From a virus: DNA of 38,047 bases. The stretch is from IMG/VR virus record IMGVR_UViG_3300034101_001526, positions 1 to 38,047 of that record; one strand, given 5' to 3'. Under the pieces are notes generated by a model. It was not told where the DNA came from and ran no database searches. It worked only from the letters and a program-made list of their open reading frames with translations. Of this stretch, positions 2,969-35,362 are shown piece by piece. The translations under genes were made by a program, and so were the position numbers. Each line of letters starts with the position of its first letter. Position 1 is the first letter of the stretch.

Positions 2969-4336
2969 ATGAAACAATCCATTACTGAAAAAAAATTAAC
3001 TCCTAATGAATTAAAAAAACGTGAGGAAGTAATTAAAAAGCTTAAAGCTAATCGTTCATCATTAGTTAAACGATATGGTAAAGATGCTGAAAAGGTAATG
3101 TATGGTCGTGCTACTAATATAGCTAAAAAAACAGCAGAAAATATGAATAAAGATAAAGTAAGAGAAATGATTAAGAAGACTCTTATGTCTCCTGTAGAAG
3201 AAAAATTCTCAAAAGAATATGATAATGACCCTGCTTTAAAAGGTAAACAAAAATCTTTACCTGATGCTTTACAAAAAGCCATTATCAAAAAATCAACAAA
3301 TGAAGATATTGATTTAGGTCATCAAGATGATGAACCAGATATGTTAAAAGCATCTGTTTATCGTATAGCACAATACGCTGCTGGTTTATATAAAATGTTA
3401 AACAAGTATGATCAAATGGATCAGGAAGTTGATTTTCCTGATTGGTGGCAAGAAAAAATTCATCTAGCTGCTGATTATATGGATAAAGCTAAACATTATT
3501 TAGAATTTGAAGAAAAACAACCAGCTTTAGATGCTATGATTCAAGAAGCAAAAGATGAAGTTTTCAAATCAGAAGCAAAAGCAAATATTGATTCTGGATT
3601 AGTACAAAAAGTAGAACGATTTGTTAATGGTGTAGCTAAGTATTATAAGTATGATATTGAATCAGCTCTTTCAGCTATTAGAACTATTATTGGAGTTGAT
3701 GAAAATAAAGTAAACGAAGGAGTTAATGAAGAAGAAGCAGAAGCTAAAGACGCAGTAGATACAGTTACTATGGATGTACCTTTATTTATCCGTATGTTAG
3801 AATTCGCTCGTGAAGACGCTAAAGCAGATGTTGATTTACATGATGTAGCTGAAAAAGCTATTGAAATTAACAAAAGTAAAGAAACATTGTCAATGCAAGA
3901 CTATGAGTCTATAGTTCCAGCATCAGAATCAATGGATGAAGGTTTACCTAAAGGATTTTGGAAAAAAGAAACAGCTGAATTAGATGAATCATTTGAAAAA
4001 TTAGTTGGTAAATTAAAAAAACAAGGCAAATCAGAAAAAGCAGCTAAAGCAATTGCAGGAGCTGTTGCTCAATATAAAGCTAAAGGTGGAGGTAAAGGTC
4101 CAACAGCTAAACAAGCGGCTCGTTTAAAAGAAGAAATGTCTGATATTGATACATTAAAAACATATGTATCTAAATACACAGATAACGCAGATAAAGAAAT
4201 CTCAAAATATAAATTAGCAGGATTTCAAGCATTTTCAGAACCAGTAAAAATAGGTTTAAAAAGTGATATGGACTTTATAACATGGGTTCAAATGAAACAT
4301 GATAAAGACCAACTTAGAAGAGAAAAAGGAATATAA
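2969..4336 (+). CDS. Modular tagged phage protein, putative head-packaged
   Basis: A 455-residue mosaic. It opens with [15 protein letters not shown], which includes I-T-E at residues 5-7. Next comes a basic helical module ending in a tag-like [13 protein letters not shown], then a segment around residues 110-190 rich in Trp/Tyr and helices ([20 protein letters not shown]) that I recall from other marine phage proteins. An acidic linker follows, then a Gly/Lys-rich basic module ([32 protein letters not shown]) and a C-terminal helical part. I do not know the function of any module. The architecture suggests assembly by domain shuffling. The stop overlaps the next start (TAATG), so it is translationally linked to it. 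Confidence 0.8.
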
Positions 4337-4800
4337 TGACTAGCAACGAATTAAAAGATAGAATACGTGTACTTGTAAAACAAGTATATAAAACCACTTC
4401 TAAAGTTGACTTAGATACTCAACAAGATATTTCTTTAGATTTGGATAAGTTTCCTATTTTAAGTAAATTTCCTACATTAAGAGATGCTATAGTTCAAGTA
4501 TTAACATCACAATATAAAGATTTTGTAGCTGATATACAGTGGGTAGCACCAAAACCAACTACTTTTAAAATTGTATTAGCTAATAATCAATTCTTTTACT
4601 TAATATATGACGAGATAACTTGGATATGTAAAGTAGAAGGTAAAAAATACTGGTTAAACGACATAAAAGATGAAGGTAGAGCTACTGAAGCTATAGCAAG
4701 AATATTAACATATGGTGCTTCTAAAAACGCTACTTCTTCATTTAAAGATTCATCAGAAGAAGCAGCGGCTACAGAAACAGCACCTGAACCTGAAGTATAA
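4336..4800 (+). CDS. Conserved phage hypothetical protein
   Basis: A 154-residue protein with an N-terminal helix (SNELKDRIRVLVKQVYK) resembling the cluster's tags but without an (I/L)-x-E site, so processing is not predicted. The centre (FPILSKFPTLRDAIVQVLTSQ, then VAPKPTTFKIVLANNQFFYLIY) alternates hydrophobic and polar residues and probably forms a small alpha/beta domain. The last 20 residues are Ala/Glu-rich and likely disordered. I recall similar short proteins in marine phages but no assigned role. It overlaps the previous gene by one base and is followed 2 nt later by the nuclease-like gene. Confidence 0.75.
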   Translation: MTSNELKDRIRVLVKQVYKTTSKVDLDTQQDISLDLDKFPILSKFPTLRDAIVQVLTSQYKDFVADIQWVAPKPTTFKIVLANNQFFYLIYDEITWICKVEGKKYWLNDIKDEGRATEAIARILTYGASKNATSSFKDSSEEAAATETAPEPEV

Positions 4801-4802
4801 TT

Positions 4803-5768
4803 ATGAGTCCAATTGAAAAATTTTTAAAACAATATTCTTATAAATTTCCTAAAGGATATCCTGACATGAAGAATGAGCAGGATATTTTATTAATGGAACA
4901 AATATTAAAAGAATTAAATATAAATATAAATGAAGCGGGTTCTTCAGAAATTTATAATAAAATAATAGAAAAAAAATTAGGTTCTTTTCCTACTCCTAAA
5001 GGAGACTATAAATTAGGAGTTAATGTTAATTTACAAGGTGAAGATGCTAAAATTTTTAAAGAATTATACCCAATATCTCCACCAAAGTCAGGTCAAGAAG
5101 ATTCAGAAGTAGGTAGTAAAGGTTCAGGTAATGGAGAAATAGCCATGTATTGGTTATTAAGTAAAAATTATACTGTAGTTGATGGCCGTGGAGGAGGAAA
5201 ACCAGATTTATATGTTAATAATATTGGTGTAGAAGTTAAAGCATACAGTACTAAAAAAATTACTTTAGGTAGATTTAGTTCAGACGCTAATAATTTAAGT
5301 TTATTAAATACATTATTTGGATTAAATTCATTAGTATCATCTTTAGAAAAAGATAGTGCTAAATCTAAAAAATCTAATCCATTAAACTTTACTAAATCTG
5401 ATATCATTGACGCATTTGAAAGTCTTAGAGATTTTAGCGCAAGTTCAGAATTAAGAGAATTATCATCTAGATATCAATTAATTAAAAATATATTTGATAA
5501 AGTAGATGAACTTATAGGTAAATTAAATCTATCTAGTGACTTTTCAGTTGATGAAGCCGCAGCTAATATGGTTAAAAGTATTATATCTTCTAAAATTAAA
5601 GAAAAACCAGGCGATGGTGGATATATAGTAAATGTTACTGAAAATGGTGATATTAAATATATTCAAGTTACCCAAGATAAATTAACAAAAGCTGATTCTG
5701 ATGTAATTTTAAACAATTCAGCGATAAACCAAGGAGCTATTATTATAAATCCAGACGCAATATTCTAA
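4803..5768 (+). CDS. Tagged PD-(D/E)XK nuclease-like protein
   Basis: A 321-residue protein. Residues 1-44 are helical, with a basic FLKQYSYKFPKGYP segment and an I-N-E at 42-44 (ININEAGS) that fits prohead-protease cleavage. The central region has the signature of the PD-(D/E)XK fold: an upstream glutamate at 112 (NGEIAMYW), then GGGKPDLYV with D135 and IGVEVKAY with E144 and K146. The rest is helical, with a beta-rich C-terminus. A metal-dependent DNA endonuclease is the likely activity. If the tag is real, the enzyme would be packaged in the head and could act on host DNA or a defence plasmid at infection; that is inference. Alternatives are a Holliday-junction or packaging-related nuclease. 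Confidence 0.72.
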   Translation: MSPIEKFLKQYSYKFPKGYPDMKNEQDILLMEQILKELNININEAGSSEIYNKIIEKKLGSFPTPKGDYKLGVNVNLQGEDAKIFKELYPISPPKSGQEDSEVGSKGSGNGEIAMYWLLSKNYTVVDGRGGGKPDLYVNNIGVEVKAYSTKKITLGRFSSDANNLSLLNTLFGLNSLVSSLEKDSAKSKKSNPLNFTKSDIIDAFESLRDFSASSELRELSSRYQLIKNIFDKVDELIGKLNLSSDFSVDEAAANMVKSIISSKIKEKPGDGGYIVNVTENGDIKYIQVTQDKLTKADSDVILNNSAINQGAIIINPDAIF

Positions 5769-5773
5769 TAATC

Positions 5774-6427
5774 ATGAATAAATTAAAAAAACTTATAACA
5801 GAAGTATTATCTAATTATCAAACATTAGATTCATGCAAATCTTGCAATAAACCGCCTATACTGGTAGAATCTAAGCAGTACGATTTCGCGATATCAGAGG
5901 CAATGCGTTACCATATAGACAGTAAACTTCAGCTTACTGAGAATATATACCGTCCAGGTAGTATAGCTCACGCTAAATTATTAACTGAGGCAAGAATATT
6001 ATGGACTAAAGGTATAATTGAATTATACGATATAGATAAAAAATTATTTGAAAATACAGATATTGGAAGATGGGATAAATACGAAGGTCAATTTGTACCT
6101 TTAGATTTACCTATGATGGAAATATTAACTGAAGCTGAATACCAAGGTAAAGATGTAGATTTAGGAAAACCAAAACGTGGTGGATCTAAAAAATTCTATG
6201 TTTATGTTAAAGATCCTAAAACTAAAAAAGTTAAAAAGGTATCATTTGGTATGGCTGGTGGAGGTTTACGTGCTAAATTAAATAATCCTAAAGCACGTAG
6301 AGCATTTTCTGAAAGACATAATTGTCCTCAGAAAAAAGATAAAACTAAAGCATCATATTGGTCATGTAGATTACCAAGATACGCTAAATTATTAGGATTT
6401 AAAACAACATTCACTGGATACTGGTAA
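5774..6427 (+). CDS. Tagged mosaic phage protein with C-terminal basic Cys/His module
   Basis: A 217-residue protein beginning with the tag MNKLKKLITEVLSN (I-T-E at 8-10), followed by a CxxC pair at 21-24 (CKSC). The middle is acidic and helical. The last 85 residues form a separate basic module, with a beta-rich FYVYVKDPKTKKVKKVSFGM followed by ARRAFSERHNCPQ and SYWSCRLPRYAK, giving H182, C184 and C198 as potential metal ligands. I recall this RHNC...SYWSC module from phage structural proteins, function unknown. Bases about 5840-6000 look slightly richer in G+C than neighbouring genes, perhaps a mosaic join. A TATTTATA box begins at the base after its stop. Confidence 0.78.
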   Translation: MNKLKKLITEVLSNYQTLDSCKSCNKPPILVESKQYDFAISEAMRYHIDSKLQLTENIYRPGSIAHAKLLTEARILWTKGIIELYDIDKKLFENTDIGRWDKYEGQFVPLDLPMMEILTEAEYQGKDVDLGKPKRGGSKKFYVYVKDPKTKKVKKVSFGMAGGGLRAKLNNPKARRAFSERHNCPQKKDKTKASYWSCRLPRYAKLLGFKTTFTGYW

Positions 6428-6435
6428 TATTTATA
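6428..6435 (+). promoter_or_regulatory. Candidate late promoter TATTTATA, very close to ATG
   Basis: Exact octamer starting immediately after the previous stop and only 3 nt before the ATG at 6439. If transcription starts about 6-8 nt downstream of the box, the mRNA would begin at or inside the start codon, which would imply a leaderless or re-initiating message. Confidence 0.4.
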
Positions 6436-6438
6436 ATC

Positions 6439-6711
6439 ATGAAAAAATCAGAACTAAGACAACTTATTAAAGAAGAAATAAGTAAAATATTAAAAGAATC
6501 TATAGTAGATGATTTTAGAAAAGATGTTGAAGCAGCAGGAGTAAAATATGCTCATGTTAATGCAGACGGAAATGATAAAATTAAAATTTATTTAGACGAT
6601 GAACCTAACAAAGAAATAAATATAATTAATAAAGTAGTTAGAACTAAATACCTTGGTAAATTAGCTAAAATGCGTTCTGAAGAAGACGTAGTAGTATTTA
6701 AAATAAAATAA
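6439..6711 (+). CDS. Small tagged protein, putative head-packaged
   Basis: A 90-residue protein with the clearest first-class tag: MKKSELRQLIKEEISKILKES, with I-K-E at residues 10-12. The remaining 70 residues (VDDFRKDVEAAGVKYAHVNADG, then KIKIYLDDEPNKEINI) look like a small alpha/beta domain. The first 39 bases match those of the next gene at 6714 except for one base, indicating recent duplication or exchange of the tag. The bodies of the two proteins differ. No known function. Confidence 0.78.
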   Translation: MKKSELRQLIKEEISKILKESIVDDFRKDVEAAGVKYAHVNADGNDKIKIYLDDEPNKEINIINKVVRTKYLGKLAKMRSEEDVVVFKIK

Positions 6712-6713
6712 TT

Positions 6714-7157
6714 ATGAAAAAATCAGAACTAAAACAACTTATTAAAGAAGAATACGCATCATCAAAAAAGGTATTAGCCATTGGTGGTGTATTAGTTATC
6801 AATCCTCAAGTTGCTAAAATGAAATACATTTTATCTGACGTTAGAGCTGTTTTAGGTGTTACTATTGTTAATAATAAAGAATATCAATCAGGTAATCCAT
6901 CATCAAAATATGAGTATGCTTACTTAGATATTAAAATTGATCCATCACCATTCCCTAAAGGATTAAATGATACAGCTAATATTGTAACTAAAGTAGAAAA
7001 AGATATTAAATCAATTCGTGGTGTAGTTACTTTTAAATTAAAAGAAAAAGCACGTGATGTTAAAACTTGGACTATATCAGAAACACCAGATCCTCAATCT
7101 GGTAAATCAGCTCCATACGGCTCAGGATACGCACCATTTAAAAAAATAAAATATTAA
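6714..7157 (+). CDS. Small tagged protein, putative head-packaged
   Basis: A 147-residue protein with the same tag as its upstream neighbour (MKKSELKQLIKEEYASS, I-K-E at 10-12), then an alpha/beta body (VLAIGGVLVINPQVAKMKYI, later YEYAYLDIKIDPSPFPKG) and a Gly/Ser/Pro-rich C-terminus (PDPQSGKSAPYGSGYAPFKK). Alternating valine and isoleucine strands suggest a ferredoxin-like fold, which is a guess. It starts 2 nt after the previous stop and its own stop overlaps the next ATG (TAATG). Proposed to be a mature head protein after tag removal; not demonstrated. Confidence 0.75.
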   Translation: MKKSELKQLIKEEYASSKKVLAIGGVLVINPQVAKMKYILSDVRAVLGVTIVNNKEYQSGNPSSKYEYAYLDIKIDPSPFPKGLNDTANIVTKVEKDIKSIRGVVTFKLKEKARDVKTWTISETPDPQSGKSAPYGSGYAPFKKIKY

Positions 7158-7594
7158 TGAGCAACTTTGATTTAAAAAAATATCTTAAAGAAGGTAAATT
7201 ATATGAAGCAGCTATGGCTTGCCCTTTACCTACTCAAGATTTAGAACTTAACACTAAAAATAGAGACTCAGCTATTAAAGCAGATTATATTAAATATGGT
7301 CCTTTAAATGTTGATGAACCTGGAGACTATTGGGAAGAATTAGCAAAACACTGGGATACAACAGTTGAAGCAGCTAAACAATCTTTATGCGCTAACTGTG
7401 CTGCGTTTGATATATCTCCAAGAATGGAAGACTGTATGCCTGGCCCACTATCAGACAATGATGGAAGATTAGGATATTGTTGGATGCATAGCTTTAAATG
7501 CCACTCAGCTCGTACTTGCAGAACATGGGCTAAAGGAGGTCCTATAGTTAAGGATGTTATATCTTATGATTGGCAAGAGCGTAAAGGAGAATGA
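7157..7594 (+). CDS. Cysteine-rich tagged phage protein, probable metal binder
   Basis: A 145-residue protein. The N-terminus (MSNFDLKKYLKEGKLYEA) is tag-like, with L-K-E at 10-12 and L-Y-E at 15-17. The body has eight cysteines: C22, C78, C81 (LCANC), C93, C108, C115, C121 and the pair-forming histidines H111 and H116 near GYCWMHSFKCHSARTC. This density suggests zinc or Fe-S binding or disulfides. The stretch LNTKNRDSAIKADYIKYGPL is one I recall as highly conserved in marine phages, but without a function. Its stop overlaps the next gene's start (ATGA). Confidence 0.75.
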   Translation: MSNFDLKKYLKEGKLYEAAMACPLPTQDLELNTKNRDSAIKADYIKYGPLNVDEPGDYWEELAKHWDTTVEAAKQSLCANCAAFDISPRMEDCMPGPLSDNDGRLGYCWMHSFKCHSARTCRTWAKGGPIVKDVISYDWQERKGE

Positions 7595-7851
7595 GGCCAT
7601 ATAAAGACATAGAAGTTACAGACAAATATATTATTCGTGAATTTAACGAAAATATAGATCCAATTGAACTAATGTGGCATCGTGATGATGAAGATAGAAC
7701 AGTTGAAGTAATAGGTAAAACAAATTGGAAACTACAACTTGAAAACCAATTACCGACTTCTATAAATCAACCAATATTTATACCAAAACACGAATGGCAT
7801 AGAGCTATTAAAGGTACAGGTACTTTAAAATTAAAGATATATAAATCATAA
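7591..7851 (+). CDS. Small cupin-like protein
   Basis: An 86-residue protein that is nearly all beta-strand by pattern. Histidines at 30 (ELMWHRDDED) and at 67 and 70 (PKHEWHRAI), with an acidic residue near 32-34, match the two-motif metal site of small cupins; GTGTLKLKIYK forms the last strand. Small cupins of this size occur in T4-like marine phages, though I cannot name a substrate. It has no head tag, unlike the genes on both sides. It overlaps its neighbours by 4 and 1 bases, so it is translationally coupled within the cluster. GGAG lies directly before the ATG, too close to be a standard Shine-Dalgarno. Confidence 0.7.
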   Translation: MRPYKDIEVTDKYIIREFNENIDPIELMWHRDDEDRTVEVIGKTNWKLQLENQLPTSINQPIFIPKHEWHRAIKGTGTLKLKIYKS

Positions 7852-8321
7852 TGAAACAACCATTAAACGAACAATTCCGCAGAATGCAAAAGCTTGCAGG
7901 AATTATTACTGAAAACCAAATCAATAAAGAATCAAACTCATTTTACCAAAGTATGATGTCTGCTAACCCAGGATGGAATAGAGAAAAAGTTATGGATATG
8001 GTAAAAAATGAAGTTGATCCTGACGAAGAATTTGGTAATGAAGAACATCAAGAATACTTAGAAGATAGTGAAGCATATTTTGATATGTTACAAGCATCAG
8101 GGCCAACTGTAAAACCAGGTGATAAAGTTGAAGTATTTGATAAAATGAAACAAAAATTCATCCCAGGTAAAATTGTAAAAGCAACTAAATTAAAAGGAAA
8201 TTTTATGTATAATGGAAATGTAGAACCTAATAATATTCCAGCATGGGAAATTTCAGATGTAGATGGTAGAAGAACATATTACCCTCAATATAAAGAAGGT
8301 GAAGCATTTAAAAAAATCTAA
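7851..8321 (+). CDS. Tagged protein with SH3-like C-terminus, putative head-packaged
   Basis: A 156-residue protein carrying the second tag class at its start ([18 protein letters not shown] at 19-21), closely similar to the tag at 2092. Residues 25-80 are helical and acidic. The C-terminal 70 residues (VKPGDKVEVFDKMKQKFIPG, then GNVEPNNIPAWEISDVDG) read like a small beta-barrel of the SH3 or KOW kind, with charged loops. No catalytic motif seen. It is the last gene of the dense tagged run; an A-tract/T-tract pair follows its stop, but I could not call a convincing terminator. Confidence 0.75.
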   Translation: MKQPLNEQFRRMQKLAGIITENQINKESNSFYQSMMSANPGWNREKVMDMVKNEVDPDEEFGNEEHQEYLEDSEAYFDMLQASGPTVKPGDKVEVFDKMKQKFIPGKIVKATKLKGNFMYNGNVEPNNIPAWEISDVDGRRTYYPQYKEGEAFKKI

Positions 8322-10347: not shown

Positions 10348-10998
10348 ATGATAGGAATCTATAAAATAATTTCACCATCAAATAAAATATATATTGGACA
10401 ATCTACTAATATTAAAAAAAGAAAAAAACAATATATACAATTAAGTAAAACTTCTATAGGTCCTAAATTATATAACTCATTATTAAAATACGGTTTTGAA
10501 AATCATAAATTTGAAATAGTTGAAGAATGTATTTTAGAACAATTAAATGAACGTGAAATATTTTGGAAACAACAAATATTAAATGAAATAGGATGGTTAC
10601 ATGTTTTATTTTGTGAAATATATGATAAAGGAGGAGGACCTAAATCAAAAGAAACTAAATTAAAACAAAGTATATCTCATAAAATAAATTTATCCAAACC
10701 AGAAATAAAAGAAAAAAGAAAAATTAATTGTAAAATAGCAGCCAATAAACCCGGAGTACAGGAAAAAGCAATTGCTAATACGGATTGGAAACAAAGAGAA
10801 ATAAATAGAATGTTATCTATGGATTATTCTAAAATTAAAAAACCTGTTTTACAATATGATTTAGAAGGTAATTTTATTAAAGAATGGACTGGATTTATAG
10901 ATATTAAAAAAGAATTAAATTATGATCAATCTTTAATCCGTAAATGTTGTAAAGAAAAACAAAAAACAGCTTATGGCTTTAAATGGAAATATAAATGA
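10348..10998 (+). CDS. GIY-YIG homing endonuclease with NUMOD modules
   Basis: A 216-residue protein. Residues 2-25 carry the GIY-YIG core (IGIYKI...KIYIGQSTNIKKRKK), with a downstream NEREIFW segment providing the catalytic Glu. The centre has basic SKETKLKQSISHKINLS and similar helices typical of NUMOD3-like DNA-binding modules. The C-terminal 50 residues (PVLQYDLEGNFIKEWTGF, then GFKWKYK) match the NUMOD1-type helix-turn-helix. This is a freestanding homing endonuclease like the T4 Seg proteins. It is fitted 3 nt after the oxidoreductase and overlaps the next gene by ATGA, so insertion did not disturb the operon. Confidence 0.88.
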   Translation: MIGIYKIISPSNKIYIGQSTNIKKRKKQYIQLSKTSIGPKLYNSLLKYGFENHKFEIVEECILEQLNEREIFWKQQILNEIGWLHVLFCEIYDKGGGPKSKETKLKQSISHKINLSKPEIKEKRKINCKIAANKPGVQEKAIANTDWKQREINRMLSMDYSKIKKPVLQYDLEGNFIKEWTGFIDIKKELNYDQSLIRKCCKEKQKTAYGFKWKYK

Positions 10999-12924: not shown

Positions 12925-13737
12925 ATGAAACGTTCAGATCTTAAATCTTTTATCCGTGAGGAAATAATAAATACATTATCAGAAGATGTAGCTTATCAAG
13001 TTACAGGTACTTCAGGTAAAACTGTTCAATCTTTTAAAAATGATCAAGAAGCAAGAGATTTTGATGCTAAAGCATCTAATGTCACTGTAAAAAAATTAGA
13101 AGAAGATGAATTAGAAGAAATGGCTAGAGCAAAAGTATCATATGCCTTAAATATTGATAAAGCTCAAGAATTAAAAGATGTAATAGACATGGCTAAAGGT
13201 AATGTTAAAAAAGCTTTAGAATATCTATTAGATAAAGAAACTATGTCTGTAGCTGACGTAGCTAAAGAATTAGGTTTAAAAGATACAGCTAGTATTAATA
13301 ACCCTAAATTCAGAGAACTAATGAATACTCTAAAAGAAAGAGGAATAGTTTCATTAGTAGGCTCTTCAGAAGTACCTAAAGAAAAATCATCAAAAGAAAA
13401 AGTAGCAATAAAAGCAGTAGAAAAAGATATAGAGACAGGTGAAGAAGAAGCAGATGACTACTATAAAGCAGGTGATGAAGATTCAGCACCAGAAGAATCA
13501 GATATTGATAAACAAGCAGCTAAAGCAGCTACTAAATTAACTAAACGTACTTCTAAATTAGATAAAGTATTAAAAGGTTTAATTCAAGTAGAAAAAGAAA
13601 TGAAAGAATTAGCTGGTGAATATAAAAATGCTGAAGGTGAAGAAAAAGCAAATATTATTGCTAAATTAAAAGAAAAAACAGCTCAAAAGAAAGAATTAGA
13701 AGCATTAAAAGATAAATTCGAATTTGATGTGGTATAA
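12925..13737 (+). CDS. Tagged coiled-coil protein, putative head-packaged
   Basis: A 270-residue protein starting with a first-class tag (MKRSDLKSFIREEIINTLSED; I-R-E at 10-12 and L-S-E at 18-20). Residues 85-150 (MSVADVAKELGLKDTASINN, then RELMNTLKERGIVSL) resemble a winged helix or other small DNA-binding fold. An acidic linker follows (ETGEEEADDYYKAGDED), and the C-terminal 75 residues form a charged coiled coil. This is the only clearly tagged gene between the 8.9-kb block and the head genes. A DNA-binding cargo protein is possible but unproven. Confidence 0.75.
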   Translation: MKRSDLKSFIREEIINTLSEDVAYQVTGTSGKTVQSFKNDQEARDFDAKASNVTVKKLEEDELEEMARAKVSYALNIDKAQELKDVIDMAKGNVKKALEYLLDKETMSVADVAKELGLKDTASINNPKFRELMNTLKERGIVSLVGSSEVPKEKSSKEKVAIKAVEKDIETGEEEADDYYKAGDEDSAPEESDIDKQAAKAATKLTKRTSKLDKVLKGLIQVEKEMKELAGEYKNAEGEEKANIIAKLKEKTAQKKELEALKDKFEFDVV

Positions 13738-20242: not shown

Positions 20243-20854
20243 ATGAAACAAGTATTAATAGAAACGCAATTATTTAGCCCTAAGCCCATTAAATTAACTG
20301 AAAGCATTACTGCTAGTGGTAATCCATTAGTTGAAGGTATTTTAGCTACAGTTGAAGTAAAAAACGGAAACGGTAGATATTATGCTCGTAAATTATGGGA
20401 ACGTGAATTAGAAAAATATATGCAATCTGTTAATGAAAATAGAGCATTAGGTGAGTTAGATCACCCTGATTCATCAATTATAAATTTAAAAAATGTATCT
20501 CATAATATAAAAAAAGTATGGTGGAATGGTGACAATATATTAGGTGCTATAGAAATTTTACCTACACCCTCAGGCAATATTTTAAAAGCATTAATTGACA
20601 GTGGTGTAACAATTGGTGTATCTTCACGCGGTATGGGTTCGTTAGAACAAAGAGGTAACGTGATGGAAGTACAAGAAGATTTTGAATTATTATGTTGGGA
20701 TTTTGTTTCAACACCATCAAATCCAGGCTCATGGATGTATCCAGTAAAAAGTGCTATGAATGAGAGTTTAATGAGAGATATTAATAAATACTCTAGAATA
20801 AACTCAATAGTGACAGAAATTCTATGTGCTAACGGATCTTGCCCTATATTTTAA
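20243..20854 (+). CDS. gp21: Prohead core protease (T4 gp21-like)
   Basis: A 203-residue serine protease. Conserved blocks are RALGELDHPDSS (catalytic His74), TIGVSSRGMGSL (catalytic Ser at 127 or 128) and CWDFVSTPSNPG (D153), as in T4 gp21 and herpesvirus assemblins. The N-terminus (MKQVLIETQL; L-I-E at 5-7, L-T-E at 18-20) and C-terminus carry potential self-cleavage sites. T4 gp21 cuts after (I/L)-x-E to mature the shell and digest the core; that rule underlies my reading of the tags in this window. A terminator follows the gene. Confidence 0.94.
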   Translation: MKQVLIETQLFSPKPIKLTESITASGNPLVEGILATVEVKNGNGRYYARKLWERELEKYMQSVNENRALGELDHPDSSIINLKNVSHNIKKVWWNGDNILGAIEILPTPSGNILKALIDSGVTIGVSSRGMGSLEQRGNVMEVQEDFELLCWDFVSTPSNPGSWMYPVKSAMNESLMRDINKYSRINSIVTEILCANGSCPIF

Positions 20855-21064: not shown

Positions 21065-22138
21065 ATGAGTACAAAAAGAGATTTGCTTAAGGAAGCTATC
21101 GAAGATGCTAAAGCAGTTAAAGAAACAGCTATAGCAAACGCAAAAGCAGTTCTTGAGGAAGCTTTCACACCTCATTTAAAATCTATGTTAGCAGCTAAAC
21201 TTCAAGAAATGGAAGATGAAGATTTAGACGAAGCTAAAATGGACGATTTAGATGAAATGAAAGATGAAAAAGAGCTTGATGAAGCTAGTGAAGAAATCAA
21301 AGAAGAAGATTTAATCAATGATCCTAAAGGTCCAACAGCACACGGTAACGTAGCTGAGGAAGAAGAATCATTAGATGAATTAAACTTAGATGAATTATTA
21401 GCTGAATTAGAAGCAGAAGAAATGTCAGAAGCAAAAGAAGAAGACATGACTGAAGCTAAAAAAGATGACGAAGATAAAAAAGATCTTAAAGAAGCTGAAG
21501 AAGAAGTTGAAACTGAAGAAGAAATCAACATCGAAGACATGACTGAAGAAGATTTAAAATCATTTATCGAAGACGTTATTAAAGACATGGTTGAAGCTGG
21601 CGAATTAGAAGCTGGTGAAGGCATGGAAGGTGAAGAAGGTGAAGAAATGGCTGGTGAAGAAGAAATGGCTGGTGAAGAAGAAGTTTCAATTGACGAATTA
21701 TTAGCAGAAATCGAAAAAGAAGAAAAAATGGATGAAGCTAAAGAAGGTGATATGGATGAAGCATATTCTAAAATGAAAAAAGATTTAGATGAAGCTTACA
21801 AAACTATCGAGTCAATGAGAAAAGATATCAATGAAGTAAATTTATTAAACGCTAAATTACTTTACACTAACAAAATTTTCAAAGCTAAAAACTTAACTGA
21901 ATCACAAAAAGTAAAAGTTTTAAACGCATTCGACAAAGCAACAACTGTTAAAGAAACTAAATTAGTTTACGAAACATTAACTGAAGGATTAAAAGAAAAA
22001 TCTAAATCACCAGTTAACGAATCATTAAAAACAAGTTTAGCTTCTAAAGTTACTACAACATCAACTGCAAAACAACCGATTGTTGAAGTTACTGAAGCAT
22101 TTAAGAGAATGCAAAGAATTGCAGGAATTATTAAATAA
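21065..22138 (+). CDS. gp22: Prohead scaffold / core protein (T4 gp22-like)
   Basis: A 357-residue, extremely Glu/Asp/Lys-rich helical protein directly upstream of the capsid gene, the position and composition of T4 gp22, the main internal scaffold. It begins MSTKRDLLKEAIEDAK, with L-K-E at 8-10, and has many further (L/I)-x-E sites for degradation by the protease. The C-terminus (EVTEAFKRMQRIAGIIK) is the second tag class seen at the N-termini of the genes at 2092 and 7851. This suggests that the tag is the core-assembly interface. Codons are richer in C-ending forms than in most neighbours, consistent with high expression. Confidence 0.85.
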   Translation: MSTKRDLLKEAIEDAKAVKETAIANAKAVLEEAFTPHLKSMLAAKLQEMEDEDLDEAKMDDLDEMKDEKELDEASEEIKEEDLINDPKGPTAHGNVAEEEESLDELNLDELLAELEAEEMSEAKEEDMTEAKKDDEDKKDLKEAEEEVETEEEINIEDMTEEDLKSFIEDVIKDMVEAGELEAGEGMEGEEGEEMAGEEEMAGEEEVSIDELLAEIEKEEKMDEAKEGDMDEAYSKMKKDLDEAYKTIESMRKDINEVNLLNAKLLYTNKIFKAKNLTESQKVKVLNAFDKATTVKETKLVYETLTEGLKEKSKSPVNESLKTSLASKVTTTSTAKQPIVEVTEAFKRMQRIAGIIK

Positions 22139-22173: not shown

Positions 22174-23838
22174 ATGAGTACAATTCAATCATTATTAGAA
22201 TCAGCTAATCCTTGGAAATCTCTTCAAAGTGATGCAGCTAAATTATCTTCTAAATGGTCTAAGACAGGCTTATTAGAAGGTTTAGCAGAGGTAGAATCAA
22301 ATAATATGTCAATATTATTAGAAAACCAAGCTAAACAATTAGTAATGGAGCAATCAGATACAGGTGCTGGTTCGTCAGCTGGTACATTCACACCAGGTCA
22401 ATCAGAAAACTGGGCAGGTATTGCTTTACCATTAGTAAGAAAAATCTTTGCTCAAATCGCAGCAAAAGAATTCGTTTCAGTTCAACCAATGAATATGCCT
22501 TCAGGTCTAGTGTTCTTCTTAGATTTCCAATATGGAACAGCTAAAGATCCATTCTCAGTAGGTGGTTCATTATATGGTGACAGAAACGCAACAGGTCAGT
22601 TCCCATTCGCTACACCAGCTCCAGTAGGTGGTTTATATGGAACAGGTCGTTTCACTTATTCAACTAACCAATTCTCAGCTTCAGCTACTGTATTATCAGG
22701 AAGCGCTGTTACAGATGCTACTTTTGCAGATGTAAACTTTAGCGCTGCTTACTCAGCTTCAGCTGCTGCAGGTGGTATTAAGAAAATTACTGTTGCTAAC
22801 GCTACATCAACATTACCTAACTTTGATATGGATGCTGTAAGAGGTTTCATTATTTCTTCAGGTTCAATTGTAACTGCTGATAACTTAAATGAGTTCTTCT
22901 CATTCAACTATACAGCTAACACAATTACATTCTTTGTTACAGCTTCTACAGCAGAATTTGCTGCTACAAGTTCATTTGTTGTTGAATATAACAAAATGAC
23001 TTTTGATAATAATAGAGGTGATTTCGAAGATTCATCTTCATACGCTATTCCAAACGCGGCTTCAAACTCAACAATTGTTATCCCAGAAATTAACATCAAG
23101 ATGCAATCACAAGCCATCACAGCTAAAACTAAAAAGTTAAAGGCAGTATGGACACCTGAATTTGCTCAAGATTTAAGTGCTTACCAAAACATTGATGCTG
23201 AAGCAGAAGTAACAAACATCATGAGTGAGTATATTTCAATGGAAATTGATTTAGAAATCTTAGATATGTTAATCGAAGATGCAGCTGCAGGTACAGAATA
23301 TTGGTCAGCAGAAAACAACCAAGTAATTAACGCTACTAACACTGCGTTTGTGAATGCTACTTCAGGATTCTACAATACACAAGGTCAGTGGTTCCAAACT
23401 TTAGGTACTAAAGTACAAAAATTAAGCAACAAAATTCACCAATTAACTTTAAGAGGTGGTGCTAACTTCATCGTTACATCTCCAACTGTAGCTACAATCT
23501 TAGAAGCAATTCCAGGATTCGCTGCTAACTCAAATGGTGATGCTGCTCAAATGGAATACGCTTTCGGTGTACAAAAAGCAGGTTCATTAAATGGTAGATA
23601 TACAATCTACAAAAACCCTTACATGACTCAAAACATCATGTTAATGGGTTACAGAGGTTCACAATTCTTAGAAGCTGGTGCTGTATTTGCTCCATACATT
23701 CCATTAATCATGACTCCTCTAGTTTATGATCCAGATACATTCACACCAAGAAAAGGTCTATTAACAAGATACGCTAAGAAAATGTTAAGACCAGAATTCT
23801 ATGGTAAGATCTATGTAGCTGGTTTAAACACTATCTAA
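22174..23838 (+). CDS. gp23: Major capsid protein (T4 gp23-like)
   Basis: A 554-residue shell protein. Typical gp23-family segments include FAQIAAKEFVSVQPMNMPSG, EYISMEIDLEILDMLIEDA, SPTVATILEAIPGF, MLMGYRGSQFLEAGAVFAPY and RPEFYGKIYVAGLN. A propeptide is predicted: the N-terminal 59 residues contain several (L/V)-x-E sites and end at VME59, close to the E65 site of T4 gp23. After it lies TGAGSSAGTFTPG, shared with the gene at 18767. The gene uses many C-ending codons (AAC, TTC, ATC), as expected for the most abundant protein. The leader is A-rich with no Shine-Dalgarno. A strong terminator follows. Confidence 0.95.
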   Translation: MSTIQSLLESANPWKSLQSDAAKLSSKWSKTGLLEGLAEVESNNMSILLENQAKQLVMEQSDTGAGSSAGTFTPGQSENWAGIALPLVRKIFAQIAAKEFVSVQPMNMPSGLVFFLDFQYGTAKDPFSVGGSLYGDRNATGQFPFATPAPVGGLYGTGRFTYSTNQFSASATVLSGSAVTDATFADVNFSAAYSASAAAGGIKKITVANATSTLPNFDMDAVRGFIISSGSIVTADNLNEFFSFNYTANTITFFVTASTAEFAATSSFVVEYNKMTFDNNRGDFEDSSSYAIPNAASNSTIVIPEINIKMQSQAITAKTKKLKAVWTPEFAQDLSAYQNIDAEAEVTNIMSEYISMEIDLEILDMLIEDAAAGTEYWSAENNQVINATNTAFVNATSGFYNTQGQWFQTLGTKVQKLSNKIHQLTLRGGANFIVTSPTVATILEAIPGFAANSNGDAAQMEYAFGVQKAGSLNGRYTIYKNPYMTQNIMLMGYRGSQFLEAGAVFAPYIPLIMTPLVYDPDTFTPRKGLLTRYAKKMLRPEFYGKIYVAGLNTI

Positions 23839-29659: not shown

Positions 29660-32600
29660 ATGAGCCAAAAAGTTAAATTACGCAGAAGCGCAATTCCAGG
29701 AAACAAACCTACAACAACCCAATTAGATTTAGGAGAATTAGCCATCAATACTAATGATGGTAAAATATATTTTGAAAAATCCTCTTCTTTAGGAGAATCA
29801 ATTCAAGAAGTATTTGTAACAGATGCTTGGATAACAGGTTCATTACAAGTTACTGGTTCAAATACTTTAATTGGAACTACTTCATTAACTGGCTCACTTA
29901 ATGTATCAGGTTCAACAACTCAAATTGGTAATAATACATTAATTGGAGAAACAGTATTATCCGGTAGTATTATTATTTCAGGATCAGGAGCTCCAGGTTC
30001 ACCTACAGCCTCTGTTCAAATATTTGGTAACACTGAACAAACTGGATATTTAAGATTTTTACCTGTAACCACTAATATAGATACTTCTATATCAGCTTCA
30101 TACATTTATGTTTCTGGCTCTACAAATGACTTATATTTTTCCCAAAATGGTGAAGGATATACTAACGTAACTCGTTTACGTTGGTTAGAAGGTAATTTAT
30201 ACACAGGTTTATTACATGGTGGTGTACTTTCTACAGCTTCATCTACTGTTTATCAAATAAGTAGTGGTAGTGGTATTATAGTAAATTTAAATGCAAGTTT
30301 AACTGATGATCCATTTCCAACAATACAATATTTAAATTGGGGAAATTTAACTGCTAGTATAGCTCCTCTTACAGCTTCATATCAACAAGCTTTTGTTGGT
30401 ATTGATTCAACTAATAACATTTTTCAACAAGGTACTCCATTTTCAAATGGTCAGTTTGATGTAATAATTAATATTGGTAATGTGTTATTTCAAAACCAAT
30501 CAACAATTAATGGTGTTAAAACACAACCTTCAGTTGCTTATGGAGCTCAACAACAACAAAATGTATTTAATAGAGCATTTGGTCCTTTAAAATTATCTGG
30601 ATATACTTTAGCACCTAGTGGTTCTTCAACTGGTGGTTTAATAGTTGGAAGTGGTACAGCTTACGCACCAGGTTCTAACTATATTATAGATCCAAACGAA
30701 CCTTATTATACTGTTGATAATGGAACTAATATATCTAAAATATTTAGATACTACCAGTCAGGATCTACTTGGGTATATTTAACAAATGCTGGTGCGGGAT
30801 TTACTACAATTGACCCTAGCCAATATTCAAATAATGGTACTTTAACTCCAGTGCAACCTAATGATTGGTCTATACAACGTGTATTTTGGTTTCCCAATTC
30901 AGTAACAAAAGCGATAGTTGTATATTATGGTAATCAATCTTATTCAACTGAAGCTAATGCTATAGCTAATATAAACATTGAATCATTTGTTGAAGCCCCT
31001 AACACAGCGGCAAATGCGATTTATTTAGGAGCAATAATAATTAGAGGTAACGGTGTGTTTACCAATGCCTCTGATTTTACAATTGTACCAGGAGGCTTAT
31101 TTAGACAAGTAGGAGGATCAGGAGGTGGAGGTTCTATAATAACTCAAACTTTAGCAGGCTTATCCGATGTTAATATATCAGGTCCTTTAAATGGACAGCC
31201 TTTAGTGTATAATAATATATCAACTAAATGGGAAAACAGTAGTACATTAACAGCAAGTTTAGATGGTAATGCTACAACAGCAACATCAGCCTCATACGCT
31301 TTAAGTTCATCTTATGCTTTAACAGCATCATTTGCCATCACGCCTACAGTATCTGGTTTATCAGGTATTTCAGGTTTAAGTGGTATATCTGGTTTAAGTG
31401 GCCTTTCAGGCATATCAGGCTTAAGTGGTATATCTGGACTTTCAGGAACTTCAGGTATCTCAGGTTTAGAAGGTACTTCTGGTATAAGTGGTCTTTCAGG
31501 CCAAGTAGGATCTTCAGGTCTTTCTGGTTTAAGTGGTACTTCTGGCATATCAGGTCTAGAAGGTACTTCAGGAATTTCTGGACTTTCAGGTGCATCAGGC
31601 CAAGTAGGTACTTCAGGTATAAGCGGTTTATCAGGTGCAAGTGGTCAGGTTGGAGCGAGTGGTATTTCAGGTCTAGAAGGTACTTCAGGACTTTCTGGTC
31701 TATCAGGAGCATCAGGTGCTTCAGGTCAAGTTGGTACTAGTGGTATAAGTGGTCTATCAGGTGCGAGTGGTGCATCTGGTCAAATAGGAACTTCAGGAAT
31801 ATCAGGTTTAAGCGGTGCTTCAGGTATAAGTGGTCTTTCAGGAGCAAGTGGTGCTTCAGGTCAAGTTGGAACAAGTGGTATTTCAGGTCTAGAAGGTACT
31901 TCAGGTATATCAGGTTTATCAGGTCAAATAGGTACATCTGGTTTATCAGGTTTAAGCGGTACATCAGGAGCTAGTGGTATTTCAGGTTTATCTGGTGCTT
32001 CAGGTCTTTCAGGACTAAGCGGTGCTTCAGGAGCATCAGGCCAAGTAGGTACTTCAGGTCTTTCAGGATTATCAGGAGCTAGTGGTGCTTCAGGTGCAAG
32101 TGGAGCCTCAGGTCAAGTAGGTGCTAGTGGTATAAGTGGTCTTTCAGGAGCAAGTGGTGCTTCAGGCCAAGTTGGAACAAGTGGTATAAGTGGTTTATCA
32201 GCTGCTACATCAATATCTAATAATGTAGATAATTACATTGTAACAGCAACAGGAAACTCAGGAACTCCATTTAATGGTGAATCTTTACTTCAATTTGATG
32301 GCCAAAAATTAAGTGTATTATATCAATCAGGAGATGAAGGTGGAGAAATACTTTTAAATAAACCAGTCACTAACACATCACTTACAGGTAGTGGTATAAC
32401 TATTGACTCATATCAAAATAGAATAAGATTTTTTGAACAAGGAGGTACAGCGAGAGGAGCTTACATTGATTTAACAGCGTGTTTAGGAGGTGCGGGAACA
32501 AATTTACTTTCAGGAGGTGCATCTGGACTTTCAGGTTTATCAGGTGCTTCAGGTGCTTCAGGACAAGTAGGTACTTCAGGTATCTCAGGACTAAGTGGAG

Positions 32601-35362
32601 CCTCAGGTGCGAGTGGAGCATCAGGAGCATCAGGTGCAAGCGGTATAAGTGGTCTTTCAGGAGCAAGTGGTGCTTCAGGAGCAAGTGGTCAAGTTGGTAC
32701 ATCTGGTATAAGTGGTTTATCAGGTGCTAGTGGTGCTTCAGGACAAATAGGAACATCTGGTATTTCAGGACTAAGTGGTGCTAGCGGAGCTTCAGGTGCA
32801 AGTGGTGCGTCAGGAGCAAGTGGAATTAGCGGTTTATCAGGTGCAAGCGGTGCATCAGGACAAGTAGGAACAAGCGGTATTTCAGGTTTATCAGGCGCTA
32901 GTGGAGCAAGTGGTGCTTCAGGTGCAAGTGGTGCTTCAGGTGCTAGCGGTATTTCAGGTTTATCAGGCGCTAGTGGAGCAAGTGGTGCTTCAGGTGCAAG
33001 TGGTGCTTCAGGTGCTAGCGGTATTTCAGGTTTATCAGCTGCTACTTCTATAACTAATAATGTTAATAATTATGTAGTAACAGCTACAGGAAATTCAGGT
33101 ACTCCATTTAATGGAGAAGCAAATTTAACATTTGATGGTTCGACATTAGAAGTAAGTGGTTCAGCTCAAGTTTCTCGAATTTCATCAGCTACTACTACTT
33201 TATATAATACATATAGAGCAAATAATATTGAAGTTGGATATATAGGAAATGGAGAAGGATTAGTTAGTGGTGGTTCAGCTACATCTTTTGGTATTAGAGC
33301 AGAATCAGACATGATTTTTGCAATTACAAATACTACAAGAATGGTAATTTCAAGTAGTGGTAATGTAGGTATTGGTACTACAACTCCACAAGGTAAACTA
33401 TCTATTGATGGTGGAAATATTAGATTTAACTATAATAATGCAGCCGCTAATTATTATATGTATTTAAATCATGCTAATGCTCAAGATGGTGGTATATTAT
33501 TGTCTAGAGATAATTCCACATTAGATTGGCAGATGAGCAATGCAGCGTCATCAGGAGACTTTTTCTTATATTCATATGGTACTAGTGCTTCACCATTTTA
33601 TATAACAAGAGCTAATGGTTATGTAGGTGTTGGATTAACATCACCTCAAAAACCATTAGATGTATTTTCAAATGCTAATGATTTTGTTACTGTAGGTGCT
33701 TATCAATTAGGAGTAGGTCAATGGGCTGGTATACATTTTGGTTATAGGGAAAATAATACAAATTATAGAAAATCAGCTATAGTATTCCAAAGAACAGACC
33801 TTACATCTGGAAATGCTCAAGGAAAGGTACATATATTAAATGGACCACAAGCAGGTGCTGGAAGTGCTACTTTATCAGATGCTAAATTAACTATTGCTGA
33901 AAATGGTAATGTAGGTATTGGTTATACAAGTCCAGCAGCATTATTACAAATTGGATATCAAAATACATCAGCTGAACTTTTAAGATTAGGTATTAATTAC
34001 TCTGCTCAAAACTCTGAAAGAGGTGCTATTATTTGGCATGATGGTTCTGGAATAACAGGTAAAATTTGGAGTGAATATGATGGTACTAATACAAAATTAA
34101 ATTTTGGTGGATTATATAATGGCTCTTATAATCAAGGAACTGTTTTAACTATTAATGGAAATAGTAATGTAGGTATAGGAACAGTAGACCCACTTTCTAA
34201 ATTATATATAGAAGGAGGATCAGCAGATTGGAATGAAACAACTCCAGGTTTATCAGTAGGTACTATACATTTAGATCCAGGAGTAACTACTGATAACTTT
34301 GGAAACGCTATTACATTTGGAACTTCAGATTCAGCAGGTGGTACACAAGCACAAGCTGGAATATATATAAGATCAGATGGTGCGTATGGTACTAAAATGT
34401 ATTTTGCTACTACAAATGCTTATATATCAGGAGCAAAAACAGCGATGATGATAAATTCTGATGGTACTATAGGTGTAGGAACAACATCTCCACTTTCATC
34501 ATTTGATGTTTTAAATAAAGTATTAATAGGAACTGATGGTACTTATGGTTCAGGATATGGAATGATAGGTTTTGGTGGTACTACAAATGGATCAAATAGA
34601 ATTATAGCTTCTCCCACGGGTACTGATGGTATATATATTATGGCTGCTACAAGTCGAGCAATATACTTTAGACCAAACGGAGGTACTACAGATACATTAA
34701 TAGTAGGAGCTAATGGAGAATTAACACAATTAGAAACAATAAATATAAATGACTCAGTACCTTTAGCATTTACTAATACAGGTACTGGTAATAATCAAAC
34801 ATTAATATACGCTAATACAACTAATTACTTATTATTTGATGTTGCTGCTAATGCTCCTTATGTTAATTTTAAGAAAAGAGGACAAGCAACATCAACAATG
34901 TTCTTAGACACTACTAACTTTAGAGTAGGTATCAATAATAACACATCACCTGCTGTATCATTAGATGTTACTGGTGATATAAATGCTACAGGAGATATAG
35001 TAGCTTACGCTTCAGATGAAAGATTAAAAACAAATTTACAACCTATAGAAAATGCTTTAGATAAAGTTAATACTTTAAGAGCAATTACTTATGAACAAAG
35101 TGAATTAGCTAATAAATATATGGAACCTAGACCATATAGACAAGCAGGGGTTATAGCTCAAGATGTACAAAAAGTATTACCTGAAGTAATAAAATTAGCT
35201 CCATTTGATACTACTAGAGATGAAAATAATAATATAGTAAGTAAAACAGGAGAAAATTATTTAACAGTACAATATGATAAATTAGTACCTTTATTAATTG
35301 CTTCAATTCAAGAATTAACTAATAAAGTAAATAGTTTAGAAGAACAACTTAAAAATAAATAG
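29660..35362 (+). CDS. Giant tail fibre with collagen-like tracts and S74 chaperone
   Basis: A 1900-residue protein. Residues 1-45 (KVKLRRSAIPGNKPT, LDLGELAINTNDGKIYF) form a typical virion-attachment start. A GSLNVSGS-type shaft and a mixed beta region follow to about 560. Collagen-like Gly-X-Ser triplets occupy 566-847 and 953-1126, each followed by a copy of an AATSIxNNV...TATGNSGTPFNGE domain. Then come about six GNVGIGTTTP-like repeats between 1200 and 1780. The C-terminus from about S1785 (SDERLKTNLQPIENALDKV...GVIAQDVQKVLPE) is an S74-type intramolecular chaperone that trimerises the fibre and cleaves itself off. Probable host-recognition fibre. Confidence 0.93.
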   Translation: MSQKVKLRRSAIPGNKPTTTQLDLGELAINTNDGKIYFEKSSSLGESIQEVFVTDAWITGSLQVTGSNTLIGTTSLTGSLNVSGSTTQIGNNTLIGETVLSGSIIISGSGAPGSPTASVQIFGNTEQTGYLRFLPVTTNIDTSISASYIYVSGSTNDLYFSQNGEGYTNVTRLRWLEGNLYTGLLHGGVLSTASSTVYQISSGSGIIVNLNASLTDDPFPTIQYLNWGNLTASIAPLTASYQQAFVGIDSTNNIFQQGTPFSNGQFDVIINIGNVLFQNQSTINGVKTQPSVAYGAQQQQNVFNRAFGPLKLSGYTLAPSGSSTGGLIVGSGTAYAPGSNYIIDPNEPYYTVDNGTNISKIFRYYQSGSTWVYLTNAGAGFTTIDPSQYSNNGTLTPVQPNDWSIQRVFWFPNSVTKAIVVYYGNQSYSTEANAIANINIESFVEAPNTAANAIYLGAIIIRGNGVFTNASDFTIVPGGLFRQVGGSGGGGSIITQTLAGLSDVNISGPLNGQPLVYNNISTKWENSSTLTASLDGNATTATSASYALSSSYALTASFAITPTVSGLSGISGLSGISGLSGLSGISGLSGISGLSGTSGISGLEGTSGISGLSGQVGSSGLSGLSGTSGISGLEGTSGISGLSGASGQVGTSGISGLSGASGQVGASGISGLEGTSGLSGLSGASGASGQVGTSGISGLSGASGASGQIGTSGISGLSGASGISGLSGASGASGQVGTSGISGLEGTSGISGLSGQIGTSGLSGLSGTSGASGISGLSGASGLSGLSGASGASGQVGTSGLSGLSGASGASGASGASGQVGASGISGLSGASGASGQVGTSGISGLSAATSISNNVDNYIVTATGNSGTPFNGESLLQFDGQKLSVLYQSGDEGGEILLNKPVTNTSLTGSGITIDSYQNRIRFFEQGGTARGAYIDLTACLGGAGTNLLSGGASGLSGLSGASGASGQVGTSGISGLSGASGASGASGASGASGISGLSGASGASGASGQVGTSGISGLSGASGASGQIGTSGISGLSGASGASGASGASGASGISGLSGASGASGQVGTSGISGLSGASGASGASGASGASGASGISGLSGASGASGASGASGASGASGISGLSAATSITNNVNNYVVTATGNSGTPFNGEANLTFDGSTLEVSGSAQVSRISSATTTLYNTYRANNIEVGYIGNGEGLVSGGSATSFGIRAESDMIFAITNTTRMVISSSGNVGIGTTTPQGKLSIDGGNIRFNYNNAAANYYMYLNHANAQDGGILLSRDNSTLDWQMSNAASSGDFFLYSYGTSASPFYITRANGYVGVGLTSPQKPLDVFSNANDFVTVGAYQLGVGQWAGIHFGYRENNTNYRKSAIVFQRTDLTSGNAQGKVHILNGPQAGAGSATLSDAKLTIAENGNVGIGYTSPAALLQIGYQNTSAELLRLGINYSAQNSERGAIIWHDGSGITGKIWSEYDGTNTKLNFGGLYNGSYNQGTVLTINGNSNVGIGTVDPLSKLYIEGGSADWNETTPGLSVGTIHLDPGVTTDNFGNAITFGTSDSAGGTQAQAGIYIRSDGAYGTKMYFATTNAYISGAKTAMMINSDGTIGVGTTSPLSSFDVLNKVLIGTDGTYGSGYGMIGFGGTTNGSNRIIASPTGTDGIYIMAATSRAIYFRPNGGTTDTLIVGANGELTQLETININDSVPLAFTNTGTGNNQTLIYANTTNYLLFDVAANAPYVNFKKRGQATSTMFLDTTNFRVGINNNTSPAVSLDVTGDINATGDIVAYASDERLKTNLQPIENALDKVNTLRAITYEQSELANKYMEPRPYRQAGVIAQDVQKVLPEVIKLAPFDTTRDENNNIVSKTGENYLTVQYDKLVPLLIASIQELTNKVNSLEEQLKNK
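31355..32200 (+). repeat. Collagen-like Gly-X-Ser tract 1
   Basis: 94 consecutive triplets, each beginning with Gly; most are GLS, GIS, GAS or GTS, with periodic GLE, GQV and GQI. Proline is absent, which is unusual for collagen-like sequence. Codons vary (GGT/GGA/GGC, TCA/AGT/TCT), so this is an old expansion for the most part. Confidence 0.92.
32516..33037 (+). repeat. Collagen-like Gly-X-Ser tract 2
   Basis: 58 consecutive Gly-initial triplets, dominated by GAS, again without proline. It is separated from tract 1 by about 105 residues of globular sequence. Confidence 0.92.
32879..33022 (+). repeat. Exact 72-bp tandem duplication
   Basis: Two identical 72-base units (32879-32950 and 32951-33022) followed by a 16-base partial third. 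Each encodes eight triplets. Base identity, against the codon variety of the rest, points to recent slippage or unequal recombination. Confidence 0.92.

Follow-up and report, generated by a model that had tools for sequence, protein, structure and literature searches.

A shared leader module with swappable, nuclease-like payloads points to a likely head-packaged nuclease in an environmental phage

The protein encoded at 4803..5768 of the window, by which we mean the whole 38 kb stretch analysed, a linear virus record with a T4-type head module, begins with a leader that is a shared module bearing many different payloads. This is the central fact to emerge from our analysis, and it lay beyond the view of the initial annotation, which had read the gene as a putative head-packaged PD-(D/E)XK nuclease. 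We regard the protein as a likely head-packaged nuclease, and we hold with reasonable confidence the joint reading that such nucleases are packaged and processed in the head and injected to cut unmodified DNA, that they are swapped in one slot, and that the phage relies on a self-protection common to all of them. The gene and its N-terminal elements are the following.

4803..5768, + strand: leader-nuclease gene, an intact ATG open reading frame of 321 aa with full-length homologues (35-89% identity) on 8 other phage contigs
4803..4934, + strand: shared N-terminal leader, residues 1-44, a putative capsid-targeting propeptide with hydrophobic residue 4 and Phe 7
4926..4934, + strand: I42-N43-E44, putative prohead-protease site with a predicted cut after E44

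Scanning viral contigs with the window protein returned 34 loci, five of which matched over the full length. At the remaining loci the match was confined to residues 1 to about 45-63, the leader (MDPIDKFLKQYSYKFPKGYPDMKNEQDILL...) being the same and the sequence beyond it quite different. When uncultivated phage contigs were scanned with the leader alignment, at least 481 loci were recovered, and the best 80 of the 481, fetched for payload comparison, yielded 80 distinct complete proteins that fall into 16 payload clusters. The leader-bearing proteins are 266-521 aa long, and they share a propeptide on otherwise unrelated proteins, as the T4 internal proteins do. Among 18 diverse leaders, F7, K14, F15 and K17-D21 are invariant; of 76 leaders, 73 have L, F or I at position 4 and 71 have F at position 7. 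The initial annotation had placed an I-N-E processing site near the N-terminus, and I42-N43-E44, followed by A45-G46, bears this out, the site being kept across the leader proteins: 77 of the 80 carry [ILMV]xE at residues 40-56, the point where leader homology stops, against an expectation of 18% (the frequency of the motif per 17-residue window within payloads), a count that does not stand for 80 independent events, given the homology among the leaders. Taken singly, an [ILMV]xE is near chance, since a 17-residue payload window has one 18% of the time; the xxE site is retained where the payload changes, so that the propeptide ends at a prohead-protease site of the [IL]xE type, a further trait of T4 internal proteins. 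The three proteins without the motif in this range (L005, L006 and L120) all come from the window's own payload family and, by eye, have such sites slightly earlier.

The payload is replaced cleanly, its ends being the leader and the stop codon, in a slot bounded by two conserved genes.

4336..4800, + strand: upstream slot flank, 154 aa, with an acidic A/P/E-rich tail
5774..6427, + strand: downstream slot flank, 217 aa, phrog_7595

At all 76 testable loci, whatever the payload, a homologue of the upstream flank precedes the leader gene by no more than 1.5 kb, and the downstream-flank gene follows the payload at 70 of 73 loci, most often 12 nt past the payload stop. Eight large contigs (89-174 kb) contain one leader gene each. 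Payload exchange is seen most directly at loci L007, L009, L010 and L011, whose payloads belong to clusters 2, 2, 8 and 0, respectively. Their leaders are 95-98% and their flanking genes 89-98% identical at the DNA level, whereas payloads of different clusters show 53-57% identity, compared to 52-54% in a shuffled control computed for one pair, L007 vs L010. This pattern bears on the possibility that the gene encodes a structural or DNA-processing protein of the head, working on the phage's own DNA as it is packaged or ejected. The terminase gene lies some 9 kb downstream, and the neighbouring block has other proteins with CTS-like N-termini, as if all of its genes encoded head-packaged proteins; however, an exchange for unrelated proteins among near-identical phages would be incompatible with a core function in the head, which makes such a role very improbable. 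Slot alleles that are wholly different between phages with 89-98% identical flanks could also be produced by a nuclease of homing type, or one serving competition, that is made or injected when phages co-infect and cuts rival genomes with another allele, the payload then being copied into the slot during repair. The PD-(D/E)XK homing endonuclease I-Ssp6803I does appear among the structural matches given below, but homing genes, which need no packaging leader, usually interrupt their target and do not, as here, fill a single slot behind a shared leader in frame. We consider homing unlikely, and it would overlap with the preferred reading of an injected, DNA-cutting cargo if rival phages were the target.

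The part of the protein that follows the leader contains the following elements.

5115..5354, + strand: PD-(D/E)XK core, residues 105-184, with the invariant K-G-x-G-x-GE112...D135-L...E144-V-K146, assigned from its predicted fold and Hjc-type matches
5136..5138, + strand: codon of E112, the helix acidic residue
5205..5207, + strand: codon of D135
5232..5240, + strand: codons of E144-V145-K146
5355..5765, + strand: C-terminal part kept in the family, helical at 198-267 (an insert) and rich in strands at 274-315, its end

E112, D135, E144 and K146, which the initial annotation had named as the PD-(D/E)XK residues, are all in place, and the alignment that it had proposed as a check, of nine family members sharing 35-89% identity with the window protein, shows all four as invariant, with no loss of catalytic residues among these homologues. 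They form the conserved E...(P)D...(D/E)xK signature of the superfamily; P134 is variable, being A in three of the nine. In an AlphaFold2 model of the window protein (mean pLDDT 80), the core consists of a helix (112-119), strands 125-127, 136-138, 141-147 and 153-157, and a second helix (162-181), and these predicted elements fit the alpha-beta-beta-beta-alpha-beta core of the superfamily, the four residues being placed on the expected helix and strands. The remote-homology search, also proposed at annotation, gave a divided answer. With a model of the core only (pLDDT 66), the top seven rows of VIA-align were all PD-(D/E)XK proteins (Hjc five times, I-Ssp6803I and HinP1I), each with a weak Z of 3.5-4.3; we take the unanimity of the seven rows, and not any single weak score, as the evidence for the fold, according to which residues 105-184 appear compatible with PD-(D/E)XK. 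Archaeal Hjc and the restriction enzyme HinP1I have the same helix-strand-strand-strand-helix order with E...D...ExK, whereas the window protein differs from them in having a lengthy helical insertion and additional strands at its C-terminus, the Z scores being weak and a sequence match lacking. The full-length model found no significant match in Foldseek searches of PDB and BFVD, probably due to the helical insert 198-267, and searches of PDB sequences with the window protein and profile A3 gave no relevant match. Taken together, no nuclease was matched significantly in Pfam, in PDB sequences or by Foldseek, and Pfam, PHROGs and PADLOC returned nothing useful for the window protein; a PADLOC CARF match (E 0.0014) was judged to be chance.

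The nuclease-like character extends to the other payloads. Most of the 16 clusters have D...(E/S)xK motifs, and a strict D-hyd...[ES]-hyd-K motif is present in 62% of payloads, the control values being 9% for shuffled payloads and 8% for a set of 166 other ORFs. This per-sequence test with controls was used in place of a strict invariant-column test, because the latter missed the window's own cluster. In several clusters SxK replaces ExK, as in Cfr10I-type enzymes. Profile comparison revealed distant links between clusters 0-4, 0-12, 0-1, 1-13 and 4-6; other links are weak, and none that joins the window's cluster to another is strong. Cluster 9 (L099:4001-4924 and L104:4001-4876) has the same leader followed by HYDDRKKERG..., does not look nuclease-like and may be a different kind of cargo. 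For the window protein, the cargo looks like an active nuclease. The nuclease core and the processing site of the initial annotation thus have the backing of homologues, of motif statistics and of structural matches that are weak yet unanimous, while its other component, head packaging, is one that we infer from the genetic setting, which includes two head genes of the window.

20243..20854, + strand: head maturation (prohead) protease, the expected cutter at xxE (phrog_207, E 4.4e-55)
22174..23838, + strand: T4-type major capsid protein (phrog_138, E 1.2e-69)

The window thereby pairs a prohead protease with a T4-type head gene, as is characteristic of phages with T4-type internal proteins. 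Packaging of the window protein is strongly suggested by its T4-CTS-like residues 4 and 7, the end of leader homology at xxE, the one swappable slot, the prohead protease in the window and a sister-payload homologue annotated as virion protein in a cyanophage. In the T4 CTS, residues 4 and 7 are targeting determinants and residues 8 and 10 processing determinants (PMC9026906). Fusions to T4 IPIII or the CTS package EcoRI and staphylococcal nuclease, and the latter is silent and harmless in the T4 head until Ca is added (PMC9026906, PMC3012670). Like T4 IPI, IPII and IPIII, the window protein has an N-terminal propeptide with determinants at residues 4 and 7, here a hydrophobic residue and Phe (PMC9026906, PMC12373910). 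The xxE end, non-homologous mature parts, variable locus and prohead protease are likewise shared with the T4 proteins. Unlike them, the window system has a leader of about 44 residues instead of 10, large and mostly nuclease-like payloads, and a likely host of another phylum.

T4 internal proteins share nothing but the leader, and their mature parts block specific GmrSD enzymes (PMC12373910, PMC3012670). By analogy, the payloads could be injected counter-defence proteins that bind and inhibit host restriction enzymes, their nuclease-like fold mimicking or titrating a host enzyme. The genetic layout is that of the T4 proteins with their GmrSD targets (PMC12373910), and the extreme payload diversity fits a race with variable host enzymes. 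On the other hand, a decoy need not keep catalysis, and E112, D135, E144 and K146 are invariant down to 35% identity; moreover, mature T4 IPI has 76 residues (PMC3012670), compared to leader proteins of 266-521 aa. Inhibition in place of cleavage therefore seems rather unlikely to us. The open-access literature searched yielded no description of a head-packaged nuclease family.

Further features of the window were noted alongside. Genes at 2092-2967, 5774-7594, 7851-8321 and 12925-13737 have short CTS-like N-termini, and the scaffold-like ORF at 21065-22138 has a similar CTS-like motif at its C-terminal end (FKRMQRIAGIIK). By eye, 10348-10998 encodes a GIY-YIG-like endonuclease (GIYKIISPSNKIYIGQS), probably a homing gene, and 29660-35362 is a 1900-aa ORF with long GLSGxSG-type repeats and a peptidase-chaperone-like C-terminal end, which probably encodes a tail fibre. 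Scanning the window for Rfam families and tRNAs gave no match.

Sister payloads have relatives in cultured phages. Homologues of clusters 4, 2 and 15 are found in T4-like cyanophages (phrog_1462, phrog_8438 and phrog_2496), three families that occupy one slot beside cytidylyltransferase/NMNAT; in the eight genomes examined their position is the same, with gp41/mazG ahead of them and T4-GC 71 or the cytidylyltransferase immediately behind. These slot proteins are homologous to leader-borne payload clusters, yet unlike the window protein they are without the long leader, and they have no detectable sequence homology to the window's own payload. One cluster 4 homologue, PQC12_gp282 of S-SCSM1, a sister payload to the window's, is annotated as 'virion protein', and the next gene encodes NMNAT. 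The S-SCSM1 study describes 45 virion proteins by mass spectrometry, including the NMNAT product of this adjoining gene, and its authors allow for co-purification (PMC9602691); the virion status of the slot homologue itself is that given by the record annotation. The N-termini of the cyanophage cytidylyltransferase/NMNAT proteins (MKKFSAFLTEAE in L124:7023-8183 and MKSFLQFLKEAAE in L125:6062-7291) are very T4-CTS-like, and a T4-type CTS-like N-terminus would explain the repeated presence of NMNAT in cyanophage virions. As a separate observation, the T4-GC 71 proteins that follow the slot protein (L123-L130; e.g. L126:6166-7035 and L128:5881-6777) contain KWDGAP...GTKS, which by eye resembles the nucleotidyl-transfer motif of DNA/RNA ligases; a ligase-like protein next to a virion nuclease would be notable if true.

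The window protein itself had no match in cultured phages by tblastn, and a genome scan found no member of its family in bacterial or archaeal genomes. A cultured relative, Flavobacterium phage vB_FspM_immuto_2-6A, was located via the terminase and the flank genes instead. Because the window terminase is 58% identical to that of immuto, a Bacteroidota host is likely. Immuto gp078 (YP_010114605.1) sits in the same slot, with a diverged leader (MSVVDKIVIEWAFRCKKGYPDMNN) and a D...EIK core, and shares 30% identity, along its length, with the L010 protein, a sister allele; unlike the window protein, it belongs to another payload cluster, and it is annotated as a hypothetical protein. The upstream gene, gp079, has a segment homologous to the upstream flank of the window, whereas the immuto downstream-flank gene sits elsewhere in the genome. 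Also in the slot's genome region, as in cyanophages, is a NadR-type NMNAT (L131:9132-11855; NC_055915.1 107131-109854). Immuto makes our model testable in an existing phage-host pair.

An injected nuclease would have to spare the phage's own DNA, a problem already raised in the initial annotation. A payload-specific immunity gene was considered and rejected: the flanks are the same whatever the payload, and most loci have nothing besides the payload between them. In some loci extra genes are present, and these are of the same kinds with different payloads, several having other CTS-like stretches, for which reason no payload-specific immunity partner is apparent. The slot thus departs from polymorphic toxins, in which a cognate immunity gene would stand beside each payload. 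A general self-protection, by contrast, is one under which payloads could be swapped freely, and 7-deazaguanine in relatives is its likely source. With the immuto protein as query, DpdA homologues were found in 8 of 8 larger leader-bearing contigs as well as in immuto, a co-occurrence that is not independent evidence because the contigs belong to one phage clade. This query was chosen because the Pfam DpdA family PF23859 had no match anywhere, controls included, and the TGT family PF01702 had none in these records. QueC is present in 7 and QueD in 8 of ten records, and the immuto annotation lists FolE, QueD, QueE, QueC, DpdA and QueF, the full 7-deazaguanine set. The 38 kb window has no DpdA, and the methyltransferase families PF01555 and PF00145 had no match in the ten records. 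7-deazaguanine in phage DNA blocks many restriction enzymes (PMC6884629), and it is plausible that the modification in these relatives protects them from the nuclease.

In the mechanism that we propose, the gene product would be a precursor of two modules, leader 1-44 and nuclease 45-321. Residues 1-44 would bring the protein into the prohead core, where the prohead protease would remove them after E44. The mature part, residues 45-321, presumably a metal-dependent nuclease of the PD-(D/E)XK superfamily, would remain in the head and be injected along with the genome. Its targets would be DNA without the phage's modification, be it the host chromosome, plasmids, prophages or competing phages, and the self-protection common to all payloads would most likely consist of 7-deazaguanine in the phage DNA and a restricted supply of metal within the head. 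Payload exchange would come about by recombination, with the conserved leader on one side and the downstream gene on the other.

T4 internal proteins are the textbook variable head-borne proteins, and the ones whose targets are known act as inhibitors; in the phages described here, nucleases appear to be borne by the same arrangement. The apparent nuclease cargo is found in hundreds of environmental phages, among which close relatives differing in payload provide a natural experiment, and the leader can serve as an easy tag when searching for new proteins of the packaged kind. The data suggest that these phages draw on an arsenal of interchangeable proteins, injected as infection begins. In its widest form, which we offer tentatively as a possibility somewhat short of even, a large T4-like clade would possess swappable head-packaged nucleases with no linked immunity, sparing its own 7-deazaguanine-marked DNA while destroying everything unmarked, and exchanging the nuclease part via a shared packaging tag. 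If true, this would be a restriction-modification system turned outward, and it would open to test both the use of injected nucleases at the very start of infection and the use of DNA hypermodification for attack as well as defence.
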